In this document: positions 4,700-21,061 of the stretch, piece after piece
Numbering within the stretch: position 1 is the stretch's first letter
Layout of the letters: each line of letters starts with the position of its first letter
Virus record (IMG/VR): IMGVR_UViG_3300009788_000084
Coordinates: 1-21,061 of that record
From: a virus
Reading direction: 5' to 3' (one strand)
DNA length: 21,061 nt
The notes under the pieces: generated by a model
What the model was told of the DNA's origin: nothing
The model's input: the letters and a program-made list of their open reading frames with translations, nothing else
Database searches by the model: none
Position numbers and translations under genes: made by a program

Positions 4700-6244
4700 T
4701 TATTCATTCCATGTCTTAACTTTTAAGGATGTTGTAGTACCGAACTTCCATTTGATACCTCGCCATAGCATTTCTACCGCATCTAGCCAATCGTCTTTTC
4801 TCTTCGGTGTGGATTCAGTACGATCATATAAGATGTATTGATCATATGCTTCCTCAATGAATCCCATATTCTTGCATACCCTAATTCTCCCCCTGGCAAA
4901 TGGTGAGTCTAACGTATCAATCCTCTTAGTCTTTTTTGTAGCCTCTTGTTTCAATGGTGTTGCACTAGGCACAGTCTCGCTTACCTCTTCTTCTAATAGT
5001 GCCTGCCAAAACTCCGCTTCGATCCACATTACATTCGGTCTATATGTTTGGCTATAGAATCTTAGTTTCTCTGTTGCTTTTCTGAATGATAATCCTTTCT
5101 CTAGATCAGTCTTCACTATATCCAAATGGCCATACGTAGTAGTCCCTATGACAATAGCGAAATAATCTGCACCAGAAGATTTACCAAATGCAGGATCAAC
5201 AGCAATATAACAATTACCACGTATCTTCTCAAATTCGTAGTCATCTATTATGTGCCAATATTTGGGATTGAAGTATTTACCTCCTCTTGGTAATGGATCA
5301 TTCTGGAATTGAGACATAAAGCTGGCTCGATCATCCAAGTACCTGAACATCAGTTGTTCGAAGGTCCATCTTGGACAACCAAGGATTTTATACGTGACAT
5401 CTTTCTGATATGAATTTCTTAATCGCATAGGTATAGTCTGAGTGCTTCCGTCCTGTGCGACATACTCTTCGAATATGACATCCTCCCAATCAGGAAAGGT
5501 TCCCTTGGTGAATTCGATTGCTGTTTCTTTTATCTCTAAGAAATGCTTCTTCTTTAATTGTGAATAGAAATCATCGTAGTCTTTCCTTGTACCCGAAATC
5601 GATAGCCTCTTGGATAAATCCCTGACATTATCATTGAAGTTCATGTATAATCTTTCACTTGTGAGCTCTGATACAGGCATTAACTGGATGATGTCTTCTA
5701 AATGTGTCCAATCTGGATGAGAGCCTACATATTTACCACCCCAACCAGATACAGCGAATATAGGATCCTCACCTATTTGTTTAGTTGAGTAGTATATACC
5801 TTTGTTCTCATCCTTCTTCTTAGTTTCATAGCCATAGTGGGCTTGTATATCAGGATCCTCTAGAACATCGAATACTATACGCCATATCTTATATGGTAAG
5901 CCTGCAATTACCAGGACTGATCGATTAAATTCAAGGATCCAATATAAGAATAATACACATAGGCCTACTGTCTTACCGTGATCTCTTGGATAGATAGTCA
6001 TAGTCTTATTTCTGGTCCACACCTCCTCTAAGAATCTGAGAATAAAATCTGGTGTGGGATCCCAATGATAGTGTCTTACGTGTTTCTTACCCCAGGTATC
6101 TATATCTCTAATTGGTATCTTTGTGTGGTCAGTTGTTTCAGAACCATTTCCGTCGATAGATCCTTGAGTTGATCGCTTCTTATTTATACTATGTTCACTT
6201 TCTGTTTTAGGGTCCTTTCTAAGTGAACGTTTGTGTTTCTCCAC
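4700..6244 (-). CDS. terL: terminase large subunit (packaging ATPase-nuclease)
   Basis: The motor that packages DNA into the head. ATPase part, numbered from GTG 6244: Walker A-type YPRDHGKT (85-92), Walker B-like strand ending HLEDII (181-186), coupling motif SISGTR (215-220). RNase H-like nuclease part: IAVDPA with Asp350, WIEAEF with Glu409, and KDDWLDA with Asp484/485 and Asp488, the three acidic positions expected. The 514-aa length is typical. The reading frame does not begin at this GTG: it stays open for 61 further codons upstream (6245-6427), and that stretch looks like a helix-turn-helix domain. The real protein is therefore probably longer at the N-terminus (separate entry). It is the first gene of the late unit. 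Confidence 0.9.
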   Translation of the reverse strand: MEKHKRSLRKDPKTESEHSINKKRSTQGSIDGNGSETTDHTKIPIRDIDTWGKKHVRHYHWDPTPDFILRFLEEVWTRNKTMTIYPRDHGKTVGLCVLFLYWILEFNRSVLVIAGLPYKIWRIVFDVLEDPDIQAHYGYETKKKDENKGIYYSTKQIGEDPIFAVSGWGGKYVGSHPDWTHLEDIIQLMPVSELTSERLYMNFNDNVRDLSKRLSISGTRKDYDDFYSQLKKKHFLEIKETAIEFTKGTFPDWEDVIFEEYVAQDGSTQTIPMRLRNSYQKDVTYKILGCPRWTFEQLMFRYLDDRASFMSQFQNDPLPRGGKYFNPKYWHIIDDYEFEKIRGNCYIAVDPAFGKSSGADYFAIVIGTTTYGHLDIVKTDLEKGLSFRKATEKLRFYSQTYRPNVMWIEAEFWQALLEEEVSETVPSATPLKQEATKKTKRIDTLDSPFARGRIRVCKNMGFIEEAYDQYILYDRTESTPKRKDDWLDAVEMLWRGIKWKFGTTTSLKVKTWNE

Positions 6245-6427
6245 TTGTCTGACTACTGTTTCTCTATCAAACCAACGTTGAACATTGCGTCTATCTTTAC
6301 CATCTGGATTAGCTATCTTGTTTCTGGTTATCTTGGACCATCCATCACCTTTTCGTCTACACTCCTGTATCTCTTCAAAATTAAAATTGGGCGACGATTT
6401 GGGCGATGGGTTACGTAGTATCTGAAA
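6245..6427 (-). other. in-frame upstream extension of the large terminase with HTH-like sequence and no standard start codon
   Basis: These 61 codons continue the terminase frame upstream of GTG 6244 to a TGA at 6430-6428. The translation holds EEIQECRRKGDGWSKITRNK (about 18-37 of the stretch) and then DRRNVQRWFDRETVVRQ, which reads like a helix-turn-helix: helix, turn around Asn-Pro-Asp-Gly, recognition helix ending in RWF. There is no ATG, GTG or TTG in frame. A GTG lies at 6431-6429 one base out of frame; skipping one T of the TTT at 6427-6425 would join it to this frame. Either a one-base sequence error, a +1 shift or a rare start (ATA at 6421) is needed. No separate small terminase was seen, so a fused one is possible. 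Confidence 0.55.
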
Positions 6428-6450
6428 TCACGATAGAAGGATAGTATGAG

Positions 6451-6460
6451 GTGTTATAAG
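6451..6460 (-). promoter_or_regulatory. possible TATA-type promoter of the late unit
   Basis: On the minus strand CTTATAAC lies at 6460-6453 in the 152-bp gap before the terminase. An archaeal initiation site about 26 bp on would fall near base 6430, right at the out-of-frame GTG (6431). The spacing is the only evidence. The gap otherwise holds the inverted repeat at 6485-6523 and no gene. Confidence 0.35.
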
Positions 6461-6484: not shown

Positions 6485-6523
6485 TGAGAGAATACTAAAT
6501 GACTGGAGGGAGGTATTCTCTCA
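6485..6523. promoter_or_regulatory. 11-bp inverted repeat between the early and late leftward genes
   Basis: TGAGAGAATAC (6485-6495) and its exact reverse complement GTATTCTCTCA (6513-6523) are separated by 17 bases. It sits downstream of the last early leftward gene (stop at 6580) and upstream of the possible late promoter. It could be a two-site operator for a repressor or activator of late genes, or an RNA hairpin in the read-through transcript. There is no T-run directly after the stem on the minus strand, so a simple intrinsic terminator is less likely. Confidence 0.5.
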
Positions 6524-6579: not shown

Positions 6580-6810
6580 TTAAGATTTGTCTACATCATC
6601 TACATTATAGTAATGTTTCCATCCATCATACATAATAAGATCTCCGTTGTTATCAAATGTGAATCCTGCTTCAATTACTCCGTCAAAATATAATGTAACT
6701 TTGTCACGTTGCCATGAAGTAGCTCTTAATAACATGTAACTGTAAATTTCTCCATTGTCTACATAGAGATAGATTTTCTTTGTTTCATTTACCGCATAGT
6801 AATCAGTCAT
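6580..6810 (-). CDS. hypothetical 76-aa protein, last gene of the early leftward operon
   Basis: Translates from ATG 6810 as MTDYYAVNETKKIYLYVDNG and onward; it is rich in Tyr and Asp and predicted mostly beta (IYSYMLLRATSW, KVTLYFDGVIEAGFTF). An in-frame ATG at 6897 exists, but 6810 has a perfect SD (GGAGG, 6 bases before) at the repeated junction and overlaps the previous gene's stop region, so 6810 is the start. Pattern resembles a small beta-barrel or beta-sheet domain. No family recognised. The C-terminus is acidic (NVDDVDKS). Confidence 0.65.
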   Translation of the reverse strand: MTDYYAVNETKKIYLYVDNGEIYSYMLLRATSWQRDKVTLYFDGVIEAGFTFDNNGDLIMYDGWKHYYNVDDVDKS

Positions 6811-6973
6811 TTGAAGCCTCCTTGTGATTTTCACATCTTCCCTTATGTATTTCAGGACTATCGAAATTAGGGTGTTCTCGTATTGGGTGATCTCCATTAC
6901 AATTCTCTACATCATAACATTCCCCACACACTTCACACATAATTGCAAATGTGTAATCGCATATATCTGTCAC
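6803..6973 (-). CDS. Cys/His-rich 56-aa protein with shared ends (MTDIC ... EASND)
   Basis: A GTG at 6973 overlaps the TAG of the previous gene (TAGTG) and has an AAGGAG SD. The product begins MTDICDYTFAIMCEVCGECY and ends CENHKEASND. It contains CEVCGEC, a later Cys and several His, so zinc binding is likely. Its first five residues and last five match those of the 86-aa protein at 8038-8298, while the middles do not align. The last codons (gag gct tca aat gac tga) double as the SD and start region of the next gene. It is too short to attract most gene finders. Confidence 0.65.
   Translation of the reverse strand: MTDICDYTFAIMCEVCGECYDVENCNGDHPIREHPNFDSPEIHKGRCENHKEASND
6808..6821 (-). repeat. 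junction repeat copy 1 (GGAGGCTTCAAATG)
   Basis: A 14-base SD-spacer-ATG unit identical to copies at 7770-7783, 8043-8056 and (opposite strand) 11916-11929. Here the match with the two other minus-strand copies extends to 17 bases (adding ACT). It encodes the tail EASND of one gene and the start of the next. Confidence 0.9.
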
Positions 6974-7600: not shown

Positions 7601-7772
7601 AAGATTTCCTCCATTCTATCTCGTCCGTAATTCGTTTGATTATGGGAGTTAGTTGTTGTTGTTCAAATCTTGATAACAATAAGCCATATTTAGTCAAGAT
7701 ATAATCAAGTAAATCTAATTGAGCATCATCGAAATATGTAGCTCTGTTTTTTCTTATATATGGCTTAGTCAT
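7593..7772 (-). CDS. hypothetical 59-aa helical protein
   Basis: Reads MTKPYIRKNRATYFDDAQLD, then LLDYILTKYGLLLSRFEQQQ and a charged end. It begins at a junction-repeat ATG (7772) with a strong GGAGG SD, overlapping the upstream stop by ATGA, and ends overlapping the TTG of the next gene. Two predicted helices; a basic N-terminus and a Leu-rich middle. No family recognised. Confidence 0.6.
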   Translation of the reverse strand: MTKPYIRKNRATYFDDAQLDLLDYILTKYGLLLSRFEQQQLTPIIKRITDEIEWRKSFE

Positions 7773-7909
7773 TTGAAGCCTCCTCTGATGAATAGACCAG
7801 TAACAAATAAAGCAACATATCTAAGAGTTTTATCAGGTATTGCAAAATGAAAGAAAACAACAATAGTTAATATTAGTATTCCTTTAGTAATTAATCTTCT
7901 TTTACTCAT
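7769..7909 (-). CDS. 46-aa membrane microprotein
   Basis: From ATG 7909 it reads MSKRRLITKGILILTIVVFF, then a short polar turn and LRYVALFVTGLFIRGGFK. This gives two hydrophobic segments (about 7-22 and 28-41) with positive ends: a small hairpin membrane protein. ATG 7909 overlaps the previous stop (ATGAGTAA), and the stop overlaps the next ATG at a junction repeat. A longer in-frame start at 7966 exists but would overlap the neighbouring gene. Candidates: holin-like or membrane-perturbing protein; unproven. Confidence 0.6.
   Translation of the reverse strand: MSKRRLITKGILILTIVVFFHFAIPDKTLRYVALFVTGLFIRGGFK
7770..7783 (-). repeat. junction repeat copy 2 (GGAGGCTTCAAATG)
   Basis: Identical 14 bases to the other copies. 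In this copy the SD is read in another frame (gga ggc ttc aaa tga, giving GGFK stop), so the DNA sequence, not the encoded peptide, is what is conserved. Confidence 0.9.
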
Positions 7910-8045
7910 CTTCAACAACCCCGTGTCTGTCTTCACAAGCATCACAAACGTAAGCCTGTGTTTCATTCAAATCTGATGTGTAACAACATCTTCCCGAGTC
8001 CCAAGACATTTGACAATGATGATAGCATGGAATTCGTTCAGTCAT
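7902..8045 (-). CDS. 47-aa Cys-rich microprotein
   Basis: Reads MTERIPCYHHCQMSWDSGRC then CYTSDLNETQAYVCDACEDR and HGVVEDE. Cys-x3-Cys with two His between, a CC pair and a CxxC suggest a metal-bound mini-domain with four to six ligands. It starts at a junction-repeat ATG (8045) with GGAGG six bases before and ends overlapping the membrane-protein start. Missed by length filters; the SD and chaining make it credible. Confidence 0.65.
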   Translation of the reverse strand: MTERIPCYHHCQMSWDSGRCCYTSDLNETQAYVCDACEDRHGVVEDE

Positions 8046-8298
8046 TTGAAGCCTCCTCAATAATTATATAGAATTTTGTACCATCATCATATTTCATTGC
8101 ATGTGTCGCAATTATCTTATCGCTTGGGTGCAGTAAAAGATAGTCTGTATCATCATAATCGATCTCTCTAACCAAGATTTTCCTATCTTTATCAGACGAC
8201 CCATTACCCCAATGTGCGTGTCTATCGCAATATTTGGAAGACGTTACTGATCTTTTGCACTTTGTTAATAAGCTTTTGAATTTGCATATATCTGTCAC
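8038..8298 (-). CDS. zinc-type 86-aa protein with shared ends (MTDIC ... EASND)
   Basis: GTG 8298 overlaps the TAG of the methyltransferase gene (TAGTG) with a GAGGAG SD upstream. The N-terminus, MTDICKFKSLLTKCKRSVTS followed by SKYCDRH, gives three Cys and a His spaced as in small treble-clef domains that appear in many virus proteins. The C-terminal half is beta-rich (ILVREIDYDDTDYLLLHP, KFYIIIEEASND). It shares its first five and last five residues, and the DNA behind them, with the 56-aa protein at 6803-6973. Function unknown. Confidence 0.7.
   Translation of the reverse strand: MTDICKFKSLLTKCKRSVTSSKYCDRHAHWGNGSSDKDRKILVREIDYDDTDYLLLHPSDKIIATHAMKYDDGTKFYIIIEEASND
8043..8056 (-). repeat. 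junction repeat copy 3 (GGAGGCTTCAAATG)
   Basis: Same 14 bases (17 shared with copies 1 and 2). It closes the 86-aa gene and starts the 47-aa gene. Confidence 0.9.
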
Positions 8299-8894
8299 TA
8301 TACGAACAACTCCTCTAGACTTTGTTGAGCAAATGCTTGTTTGAATACATACAATCCAATATTTGGATTCATTCGTATTCTTTCGATTCCTCCCTTTTGC
8401 ATATTCTTCACATCATCCGAAGGAAAATCTTTTGATTCGATGGGATAGTTTGCCCAGATATAATGCCGTCCTAGCTTTACTGGTATCGGAAAGGCAGTAC
8501 CATAAATCAAACCATACCTGGGTGTGACATTTTCAATTGCCCATTTACCCTGATAATCATACTTCTGTTTTAGATCAATCATTAATCCATACAATGAATT
8601 CAAATCTGGTGAATGATTATAATCCTGAAATCTCATCATGATACTATGTGTTTGACAAGGTGGACTAGCCCAGATAAAATGATATTTATTAAGATCTACA
8701 TCATCTAGATAATCATTAACATCTTTAAGGAACACTCCATCCTTTGGAAAATTATCTTCATAGATACTTATTCTTTCCAGATTGTTATCAACTGCATCGA
8801 CTTCTACGTTCTCCCATAGTTCCCGGTTACCTCCGACACCTGCATATAGATTAAGCACTTTTCGGTTAGTTTTAGATATACGCAAATTATTCAT
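8298..8894 (-). CDS. C5-cytosine DNA methyltransferase, compact phage type
   Basis: 198 aa. Motif I is NLYAGVGG (15-22, AdoMet binding), motif IV is SPPCQ with the catalytic Cys80, and motif VI is ENV (121-123). After these, IYGTAFPIP and LGRHYIWANYP (141-151) match the pattern of compact virus-borne enzymes that keep a 'RH..W/F' strand. The length is far below the 300+ aa of restriction-linked enzymes, and the variable target-recognition region is almost absent, so a distinct specificity or partner is possible. There is no restriction endonuclease nearby. Most likely it modifies viral DNA to escape host restriction. ATG 8894 overlaps the upstream stop by ATGA. Confidence 0.85.
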   Translation of the reverse strand: MNNLRISKTNRKVLNLYAGVGGNRELWENVEVDAVDNNLERISIYEDNFPKDGVFLKDVNDYLDDVDLNKYHFIWASPPCQTHSIMMRFQDYNHSPDLNSLYGLMIDLKQKYDYQGKWAIENVTPRYGLIYGTAFPIPVKLGRHYIWANYPIESKDFPSDDVKNMQKGGIERIRMNPNIGLYVFKQAFAQQSLEELFV

Positions 8895-9722: not shown

Positions 9723-9752
9723 TGGTTTTCGCCTATACTATAATACGGATAA

Positions 9753-9762
9753 TAATATAAAT
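9753..9762 (-). promoter_or_regulatory. TATA-type promoter for the early leftward operon
   Basis: On the minus strand ATTTATATTA lies at 9762-9753, about 35 bp before ATG 9722. An initiation site near 9731 would give a leader of about 9 bases. This spacing matches archaeal promoters better than a bacterial -10/-35 pair, which I could not place well here. Confidence 0.45.
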
Positions 9763-9885
9763 ACTTAGTGTATACTTGTATTGATAGATACTCACATTAA
9801 TTAATTATATTGATCTAATCAAACAGGATAGGATTACAGACACTCTTAAATCTTAGATACCCCGACCCCTATTTCATCCGCTATA

Positions 9886-9939
9886 TAATAATAATAATAA
9901 TAATAATAAATAATATATTTATATATATATATATATATA
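9886..9939. repeat. (TAA)8 and (AT)9 simple repeats
   Basis: Eight perfect TAA triplets at 9886-9909 and nine AT units at 9921-9938, separated by a few A/T bases. They are the only simple repeats of this length in the window and lie in the centre of the divergent control region. Confidence 0.95.
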
Positions 9940-10000
9940 ATTAATATAATAATATAATAATACAACAGATATTTACTATCGTCGTACTTCCATCGGAAAT

Positions 10001-10010
10001 ATTAATATAA
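10001..10010 (+). promoter_or_regulatory. TATA-type promoter for the early rightward operon
   Basis: ATTAATATAA at 10001-10010 is centred about 28 bp before the ATG at 10035, with no SD in between. That is the geometry of an archaeal leaderless transcript. Confidence 0.45.
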
Positions 10011-10034
10011 CAATACACGAATACAGTAATTACT

Positions 10035-11703: not shown

Positions 11704-11934
11704 GTGAGATGTGATGGTTGTAGATATCCTAATAATAACCTGCGATGGAAATATGTGGTAATCAAAAACAGAGGTAAAGAAGAATTAAGATTTCATTTGG
11801 AATGTTATAAAGCAAAGATCATTGAAGCCATACTTAATAATCCAAAGGATAGAGTCATACTAAGAGATTTATTGATTAAGAAAAGTAATAAGATCTTCTT
11901 TCATCAAAATGTTAAGGAGGCTTCAAATGGATAA
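11704..11934 (+). CDS. treble-clef zinc protein, 76 aa
   Basis: GTG 11704 start, two bases after the previous stop. CDGC (3-6) and HLEC (31-34), spaced by a beta hairpin with a Trp (LRWKYVVIKNRGKEELRF), give the CxxC ... HxxC layout of treble-clef fingers similar to those of PARP-type or endonuclease-type proteins. The C-terminal half is a basic helix bundle (KIIEAILNNPKDRVILRDLL). It ends in KEASNG, written by the junction repeat at 11916-11929. Probably DNA- or RNA-binding. Confidence 0.7.
   Translation: MRCDGCRYPNNNLRWKYVVIKNRGKEELRFHLECYKAKIIEAILNNPKDRVILRDLLIKKSNKIFFHQNVKEASNG
11916..11929 (+). repeat. junction repeat copy 4 (GGAGGCTTCAAATG), opposite strand
   Basis: The same 14 bases as the three minus-strand copies but on the plus strand, in the other early operon. 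Here too it encodes the end of one zinc-type gene (EASNG) and the SD and start of the next. Confidence 0.9.
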
Positions 11935-20591: not shown

Positions 20592-21061
20592 TTATCCTTC
20601 TAACCTCACTATAGTTACTAGATTTTCTGCACTACCTACAGCGTGCACTTTGGCAAATCTACCAACGAATAATCTATCTCTCTGAGCAGTAGTAGCAGGC
20701 GCGAAGTTAGTAACAGTGCCCGGATCTAAATTACCCTGGATAAGAACAGGACCCCATGTCGCATTATCAAGTACGTAAGCAGGATCGCCTAATGCTACAG
20801 CTAAACTTGAACTGCCATCTCTGAATAAAACACATTGAACTTTAATACCTGCAGCTCGTCTCAATACTTTGACTTGTGTATTGTCTGGAAAATCATTACC
20901 TAAAGTATAACCTGATTGAAATGATCTCTCATTGGCATAATCTCGGATAATACCATAAGCGGCCTCGCCTTCATCGATTACATCAATATCATCTCCGGTT
21001 TCACCCTCACGGGTAATAAACATACCGGCGCTCATATCTGCGCCATTGGTTACTAGAATAT
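20592..21061 (-). CDS. capsid decoration/cement-type protein (3' part, continues at 1-157)
   Basis: Full product 167 aa when the join is closed (ATG at base 157). The visible part is beta-rich with Gly turns (IKVQCVLFRDGSSSLAVALG, then DPAYVL), and a C-terminal strand pair (RLFVGRFAKVHAVGSAENLV). Size, beta content and place directly before the major capsid gene match head-decoration or cement proteins (as in lambda gpD or DUF2190 types). I see no exact family motif. It is the first gene of the capsid part and may have its own promoter (237-248). The copy of its 5' region at 1-123 is the join repeat. Confidence 0.6.
   Translation of the reverse strand, partial: ILVTNGADMSAGMFITREGETGDDIDVIDEGEAAYGIIRDYANERSFQSGYTLGNDFPDNTQVKVLRRAAGIKVQCVLFRDGSSSLAVALGDPAYVLDNATWGPVLIQGNLDPGTVTNFAPATTAQRDRLFVGRFAKVHAVGSAENLVTIVRLEG
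20939..21061. repeat. terminal direct repeat, right copy (circular join)
   Basis: Exact duplicate of bases 1-123. Removing one copy leaves 20,938 bp of unique sequence and restores the decoration-protein gene as one uninterrupted reading frame. Confidence 0.95.

Follow-up and report, generated by a model that had tools for sequence, protein, structure and literature searches.

A possible helix-turn-helix N-terminus on the large terminase of an orphan tailed virus

Introduction

The large terminases of the Peduoviridae (PF06056 Terminase_5 plus PF03237/PF17289) carry an N-terminal helix-turn-helix (HTH) followed by the ATPase-nuclease core. In gpP of phage P2, Terminase_5, HTH_23, Terminase_6N, and Terminase_6C are found in a single protein, for which our own search gave a Terminase_5/HTH match at E = 2.3e-27, and the terminase record of phage 186 itself mentions an HTH. 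With the arrangement of P2 gpP known, an HTH on a large terminase is not new. There, the HTH presumably helps to set the motor on DNA at packaging. P2 also has a separate small terminase, and an HTH on a large terminase therefore does not imply that the small and large subunits have been fused.

Here, we describe a large terminase gene of a virus in which an open, HTH-like stretch without a standard start codon lies directly in front of the first usable start. We compare this stretch with the P2 arrangement and weigh the possible starts of the protein.

Results

The window, which is the whole 21,061-nt stretch of DNA that we analyzed, corresponds to a virus record of IMG/VR in which positions 1-123 and 20939-21061 are perfect copies of one 123-bp repeat. 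Because the ends are identical over 123 bp, the record probably represents a complete genome of ~20.9 kb that was assembled as a circle. We class it as a tailed virus from its terminase, a large gene of tail-like character, and a weak match to a portal. A megablast of the whole window against a phage collection of 50,697 records returned zero nucleotide matches, and the portal, capsid-like, and tail proteins had zero protein matches in the same collection. We found no close relative with peptide patterns (terminase, portal, capsid-like protein, 853-aa tail protein) in viral contigs, with terminase peptide patterns in genome contigs, with degenerate DNA motifs and profile-derived patterns, or in the phyla of a Poseidoniales and a Methanothrix genome (up to 400 genomes each). 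All of these searches together yielded distant terminases only, at 15 to 24% identity with local segments of up to 32%. Judged by these comparisons, this is a virus of the tailed kind without close known relatives, an orphan in the collections searched.

Several other features of the genome were observed. The protein encoded at 1527-2081 shows a pattern like that of a C2H2 zinc finger (CKYISKKDKTKHCPFETSYKAALREHEKTH); this protein and the TATA-like elements near the first genes are hints of an archaeal host. The gene at 8298-8894 encodes a 198-aa cytosine methyltransferase-like protein, with the family matched over the N-terminal part only. The divergent intergenic region at 9723-10034 is very AT-rich, with AAT and AT runs, and gene direction and GC skew switch there; it looks origin-like. 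A ribosome-binding-site-like stretch plus ATG (GGAGGCTTCAAATG) is present in four exact copies distributed over the two strands, where 0.08 would be expected with up to 2 mismatches allowed, and TGACAGATATATG is present in two copies, at the starts of genes 6973 and 8298. The recurrence of these two motifs suggests that small early genes have been duplicated.

On the minus strand, 6427..4700 forms an open frame of 575 codons. It matched phrog_38 at E = 6.8e-36, PF17289 Terminase_6C at 24.6 bits (cut-off, 22.6), and a profile of 46 distant terminases at 159.5 bits over residues 88-559 of the 575-residue open reading frame. The Walker A motif is intact (PRDHGKT, residues 147-153), and the acidic nuclease residues D411, E470, D545, and D546, which are invariant across 47 sequences, are present. 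The profile match, Walker A, and the nuclease residues place the protein among the large terminases (PHROG 38, Terminase_6), and the identity that the sequence-only reading had given this gene is borne out. By these sequence characters, the gene is an ordinary, genuine large terminase of a tailed virus, that is, a DNA-packaging motor. Among the large terminases of PHROG 38 and related phages, that of Mannheimia phage vB_MhM_3927AP2 shares the motifs and has a similar core (22.5% identity, with 77% of the protein covered). Recognizable terminase homology starts only at about residue 88 to 104, with the conserved block beginning at about 102 to 104. Since the homology begins at least 26 residues downstream of GTG 6244, the form made from that codon already holds the full motor; it would open with about 26 to 42 charged residues ahead of the terminase homology.

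Table 1. Coordinates of the terminase features and of the recurring start motif in the window
Feature	Position	Strand	Basis or remark
Large terminase, GTG start form, 514 aa	4700..6244	-	Holds whole ATPase-nuclease core; only standard start
Charged low-complexity linker	6119..6243 (end approximate)	-	Translation and homology envelope; from GTG 6244 to clear homology
61 open codons in frame with GTG 6244, without ATG/GTG/TTG	6245..6427	-	Chance of openness, 0.011-0.018
HTH-like segment (RRKGDGWSKITRNKIANPDGKDRRNVQRWFDRETVVR)	6251..6358	-	phrog_11725, 19.6 bits (six-frame genome); P2-gpP profile; weak
ATA, candidate non-standard start	6368..6370	-	Suggested by codon-choice change at codon 20/21
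First 20 codons of extension	6368..6427	-	-6.7 bits; 0% of 20-codon in-gene windows as low
GTG one base out of frame	6429..6431	-	Own frame of six codons, then TAA, ending at 6411
TATA-like TTATAA	6453..6458	-	Centered about 25 bp upstream of GTG 6431
GGAGGCTTCAAATG copy	6808-6821	-	
GGAGGCTTCAAATG copy	7770-7783	-	
GGAGGCTTCAAATG copy	8043-8056	-	
GGAGGCTTCAAATG copy	11916-11929	+	

Upstream of GTG 6244, the sequence-only reading had reported 61 open codons without a start and a GTG at 6431 that is one base off the terminase frame. We confirmed both in position and in frame (Table 1). The open stretch, which we call the extension, is bounded upstream by a TGA at 6430-6428, and a +1 shift would be required to pass from GTG 6431 into the terminase frame. 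GTG 6244 is the sole ATG, GTG, or TTG before the motor; the only near-start codons in the extension are ATA, at 6421, 6370, 6331, and 6316. Two main readings of this arrangement are nearly balanced. In the first, which we give an even chance, the protein has a real HTH-bearing N-terminus whose start is hidden or non-standard. In the second, which we rate at somewhat below even, translation begins at GTG 6244, and the stretch upstream is a leader that is not translated, or what is left of a decayed older N-terminus; its openness and HTH look arose by chance.

The openness of the extension argues for an HTH-bearing N-terminus and against a start at GTG 6244. A run of at least 61 open codons upstream arose by chance with p = 0.018 when the region was dinucleotide-shuffled and p = 0.011 with intergenic composition, 2.0% of the 61-codon windows in the wrong frames of the genome's genes were stop-free, and every other gene of the genome has at most 38 open codons before its start. 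The missing ATG, GTG, and TTG are unremarkable and uninformative because 13% of gene-interior windows of 61 codons also have none. The case for translation of the 61 codons is suggestive only.

Codon choice divides the extension in two. The score that we used measures synonymous preference only and was trained on the genome's own genes. All 61 codons jointly score lower than 99.4% of gene windows, which favors a start at GTG 6244. The whole deficit sits in codons 1 to 20 and counts against an HTH-bearing N-terminus. Because their synonymous choice is below that of every 20-codon gene window, codons 1 to 20 are probably untranslated or atypically translated. Codons 21 to 61 are gene-like (+3.0 bits, compared with a gene mean of +3.2), as an HTH-bearing N-terminus would have it; the discriminating power of this value is modest, since it is unexceptional among stop-free wrong-frame windows (72nd percentile). 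If anything, the change in codon choice favors translation that begins within the extension, around ATA 6370, over a start at 6421 or 6431. Within the anti-coding first 20 codons, at 6388-6409, TCGCCCAA is repeated; this could be a putative protein-binding site or chance.

We then asked how far the extension resembles an HTH. When it was compared with the PHROG library, the only match was phrog_11725, at E = 0.003 over residues 25 to 59. This match is not compelling because one of similar strength (E = 0.008) arose among ten other proteins compared. A Pfam scan of the N-terminal 128 residues found no HTH and no Terminase_5, even at E ≤ 10, and the best matches among PDB sequences were homeodomains at E ~ 0.1. 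By hhalign, the score to a P2-gpP HTH profile was 16.3, which was equaled by 4 of 200 shuffles (p ~ 0.02); by hmmsearch with this profile, E was 0.7, and the extension frame was not the top-scoring frame of the window. AlphaFold, run on the N-terminal 118 residues as a single sequence without an alignment, gave an uninformative pLDDT of 55. Thus, of the earlier description of an HTH-like translation, a faint likeness exactly in the terminase frame has held up, and a domain that Pfam recognizes has not. That the extension carries an HTH is suggestive from these comparisons, not established.

Compared with P2 gpP, the extension lacks both the Terminase_5/HTH match and a standard start codon, the terminase core is on a distant branch, and the HTH similarity is limited to the hhalign result. 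By the Pfam scan, the extension falls outside Terminase_5, the P2 gpP type; it could still function like a Terminase_5 HTH. None of the 46 distant large terminases (0/46) has an N-terminal HTH by Pfam. This does not refute an HTH-bearing N-terminus, since these proteins are only 15 to 24% identical and have no linker. Counting against such an N-terminus, conservation of the stretch was seen in no relative.

It had also been proposed that the gene is a fused small-large terminase. TerS has an oligomerization core in addition to its N-terminal HTH (PMC9611059). The space before the motor holds only ~40 HTH-like residues and the charged linker, and the extension looks too short for such a core. 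The proposal of a fusion is not supported. The companion observation, that no separate small terminase was found, agrees with our check of its small proteins, among which none was recognized.

Transcription signals bear on where the mRNA begins. The TATA-like element above GTG 6431 is present as had been described (TTATAA, 6458-6453). In front of the terminase gene, neither a sigma-70-type bacterial promoter, of which there was none at TTATAA, nor a terminator was supported. Between the TATA-like element and the next gene upstream, 6485-6495 and 6513-6523 form an inverted repeat (TGAGAGAATAC) with perfectly matching arms of 11 bp that are separated by 17 nt. Any such inverted repeat turned up in 3 of 20 genome shuffles, and this one is a possible candidate operator.

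There is no Shine-Dalgarno sequence before ATA 6370 or GTG 6244 and no promoter close to GTG 6244, which argues against a start at the latter. In its favor, Shine-Dalgarno sequences are also missing at several other genes of the genome. However, those genes are mostly closely behind an upstream gene or ~30 bp from a TATA-like element, and GTG 6244, if it were the start, would sit about 187 nt into a leader, unlike them. The two other operon-first genes, 9722 and 10035, have no Shine-Dalgarno sequence either and start ~30 bp downstream of TATA-like elements.

The similar layout at GTG 6431, with TTATAA about 25 bp above it, raises the possibility that this GTG is a leaderless start and the real one, put out of frame by a sequencing or assembly error or by a real one-base mutation. 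The suspected run is just three T, an untypical site for an error, and the anti-coding codons 1 to 20 would lie directly behind the start. We consider this unlikely; its probability is part of that given to the HTH-bearing N-terminus, overlapping with it and not additional. A programmed +1 frameshift from GTG 6431, which the sequence-only reading had offered as another option, has the frame relation as its one point in favor. The shift must fall within the first six codons, where we found by inspection no known slippery element; no Rfam element matched, and there is no conservation evidence. We regard a programmed shift as unsupported and very improbable.

Discussion

On this single genome, the two readings of where the terminase starts stay close in probability. 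A start at GTG 6244 has the merit of being the sole standard start and of yielding the complete core, and it agrees with the poor codon choice of the 61 codons taken together and with the failure of Pfam to find an HTH upstream. It leaves the openness and the weak in-frame HTH signal to chance and would need the long leader. An HTH-bearing N-terminus accounts for the open codons and for the position of the HTH signal, and the charged residues after GTG 6244 fit an inter-domain linker better than the beginning of a protein. It also has a precedent in the architecture of P2 gpP. Against it are the missing standard start, the anti-coding codons 1 to 20, and the PHROG and Pfam results.

If an HTH-bearing N-terminus is made, the protein would consist of a small N-terminal HTH (about codons 21 to 61 of the extension), the charged linker, and then the motor, as in P2 gpP. 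The longer form would start at a rare ATA, with 6370 likelier than 6421, or at a standard start hidden by one base, and that one-base difference would be in the genome or in the assembly. An mRNA transcribed from the TATA-like element (6453-6458) would begin near 6430 and span the entire extension.

A stronger proposal is that this tailed virus belongs to an undescribed group and translates its large terminase, HTH included, from AUA or, through a programmed +1 shift, from the leaderless GTG, and that the HTH replaces the absent small terminase. We consider this proposal as a whole doubtful, at long odds.

As it stands, this is mainly a problem of gene-start annotation in a virus to which the collections offer no close relative. 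Should the longer form prove real, it would add a further, distant example of a packaging motor with its own HTH, here in a genome among whose small proteins no small terminase was recognized. It would also be a candidate for initiation at a rare codon.
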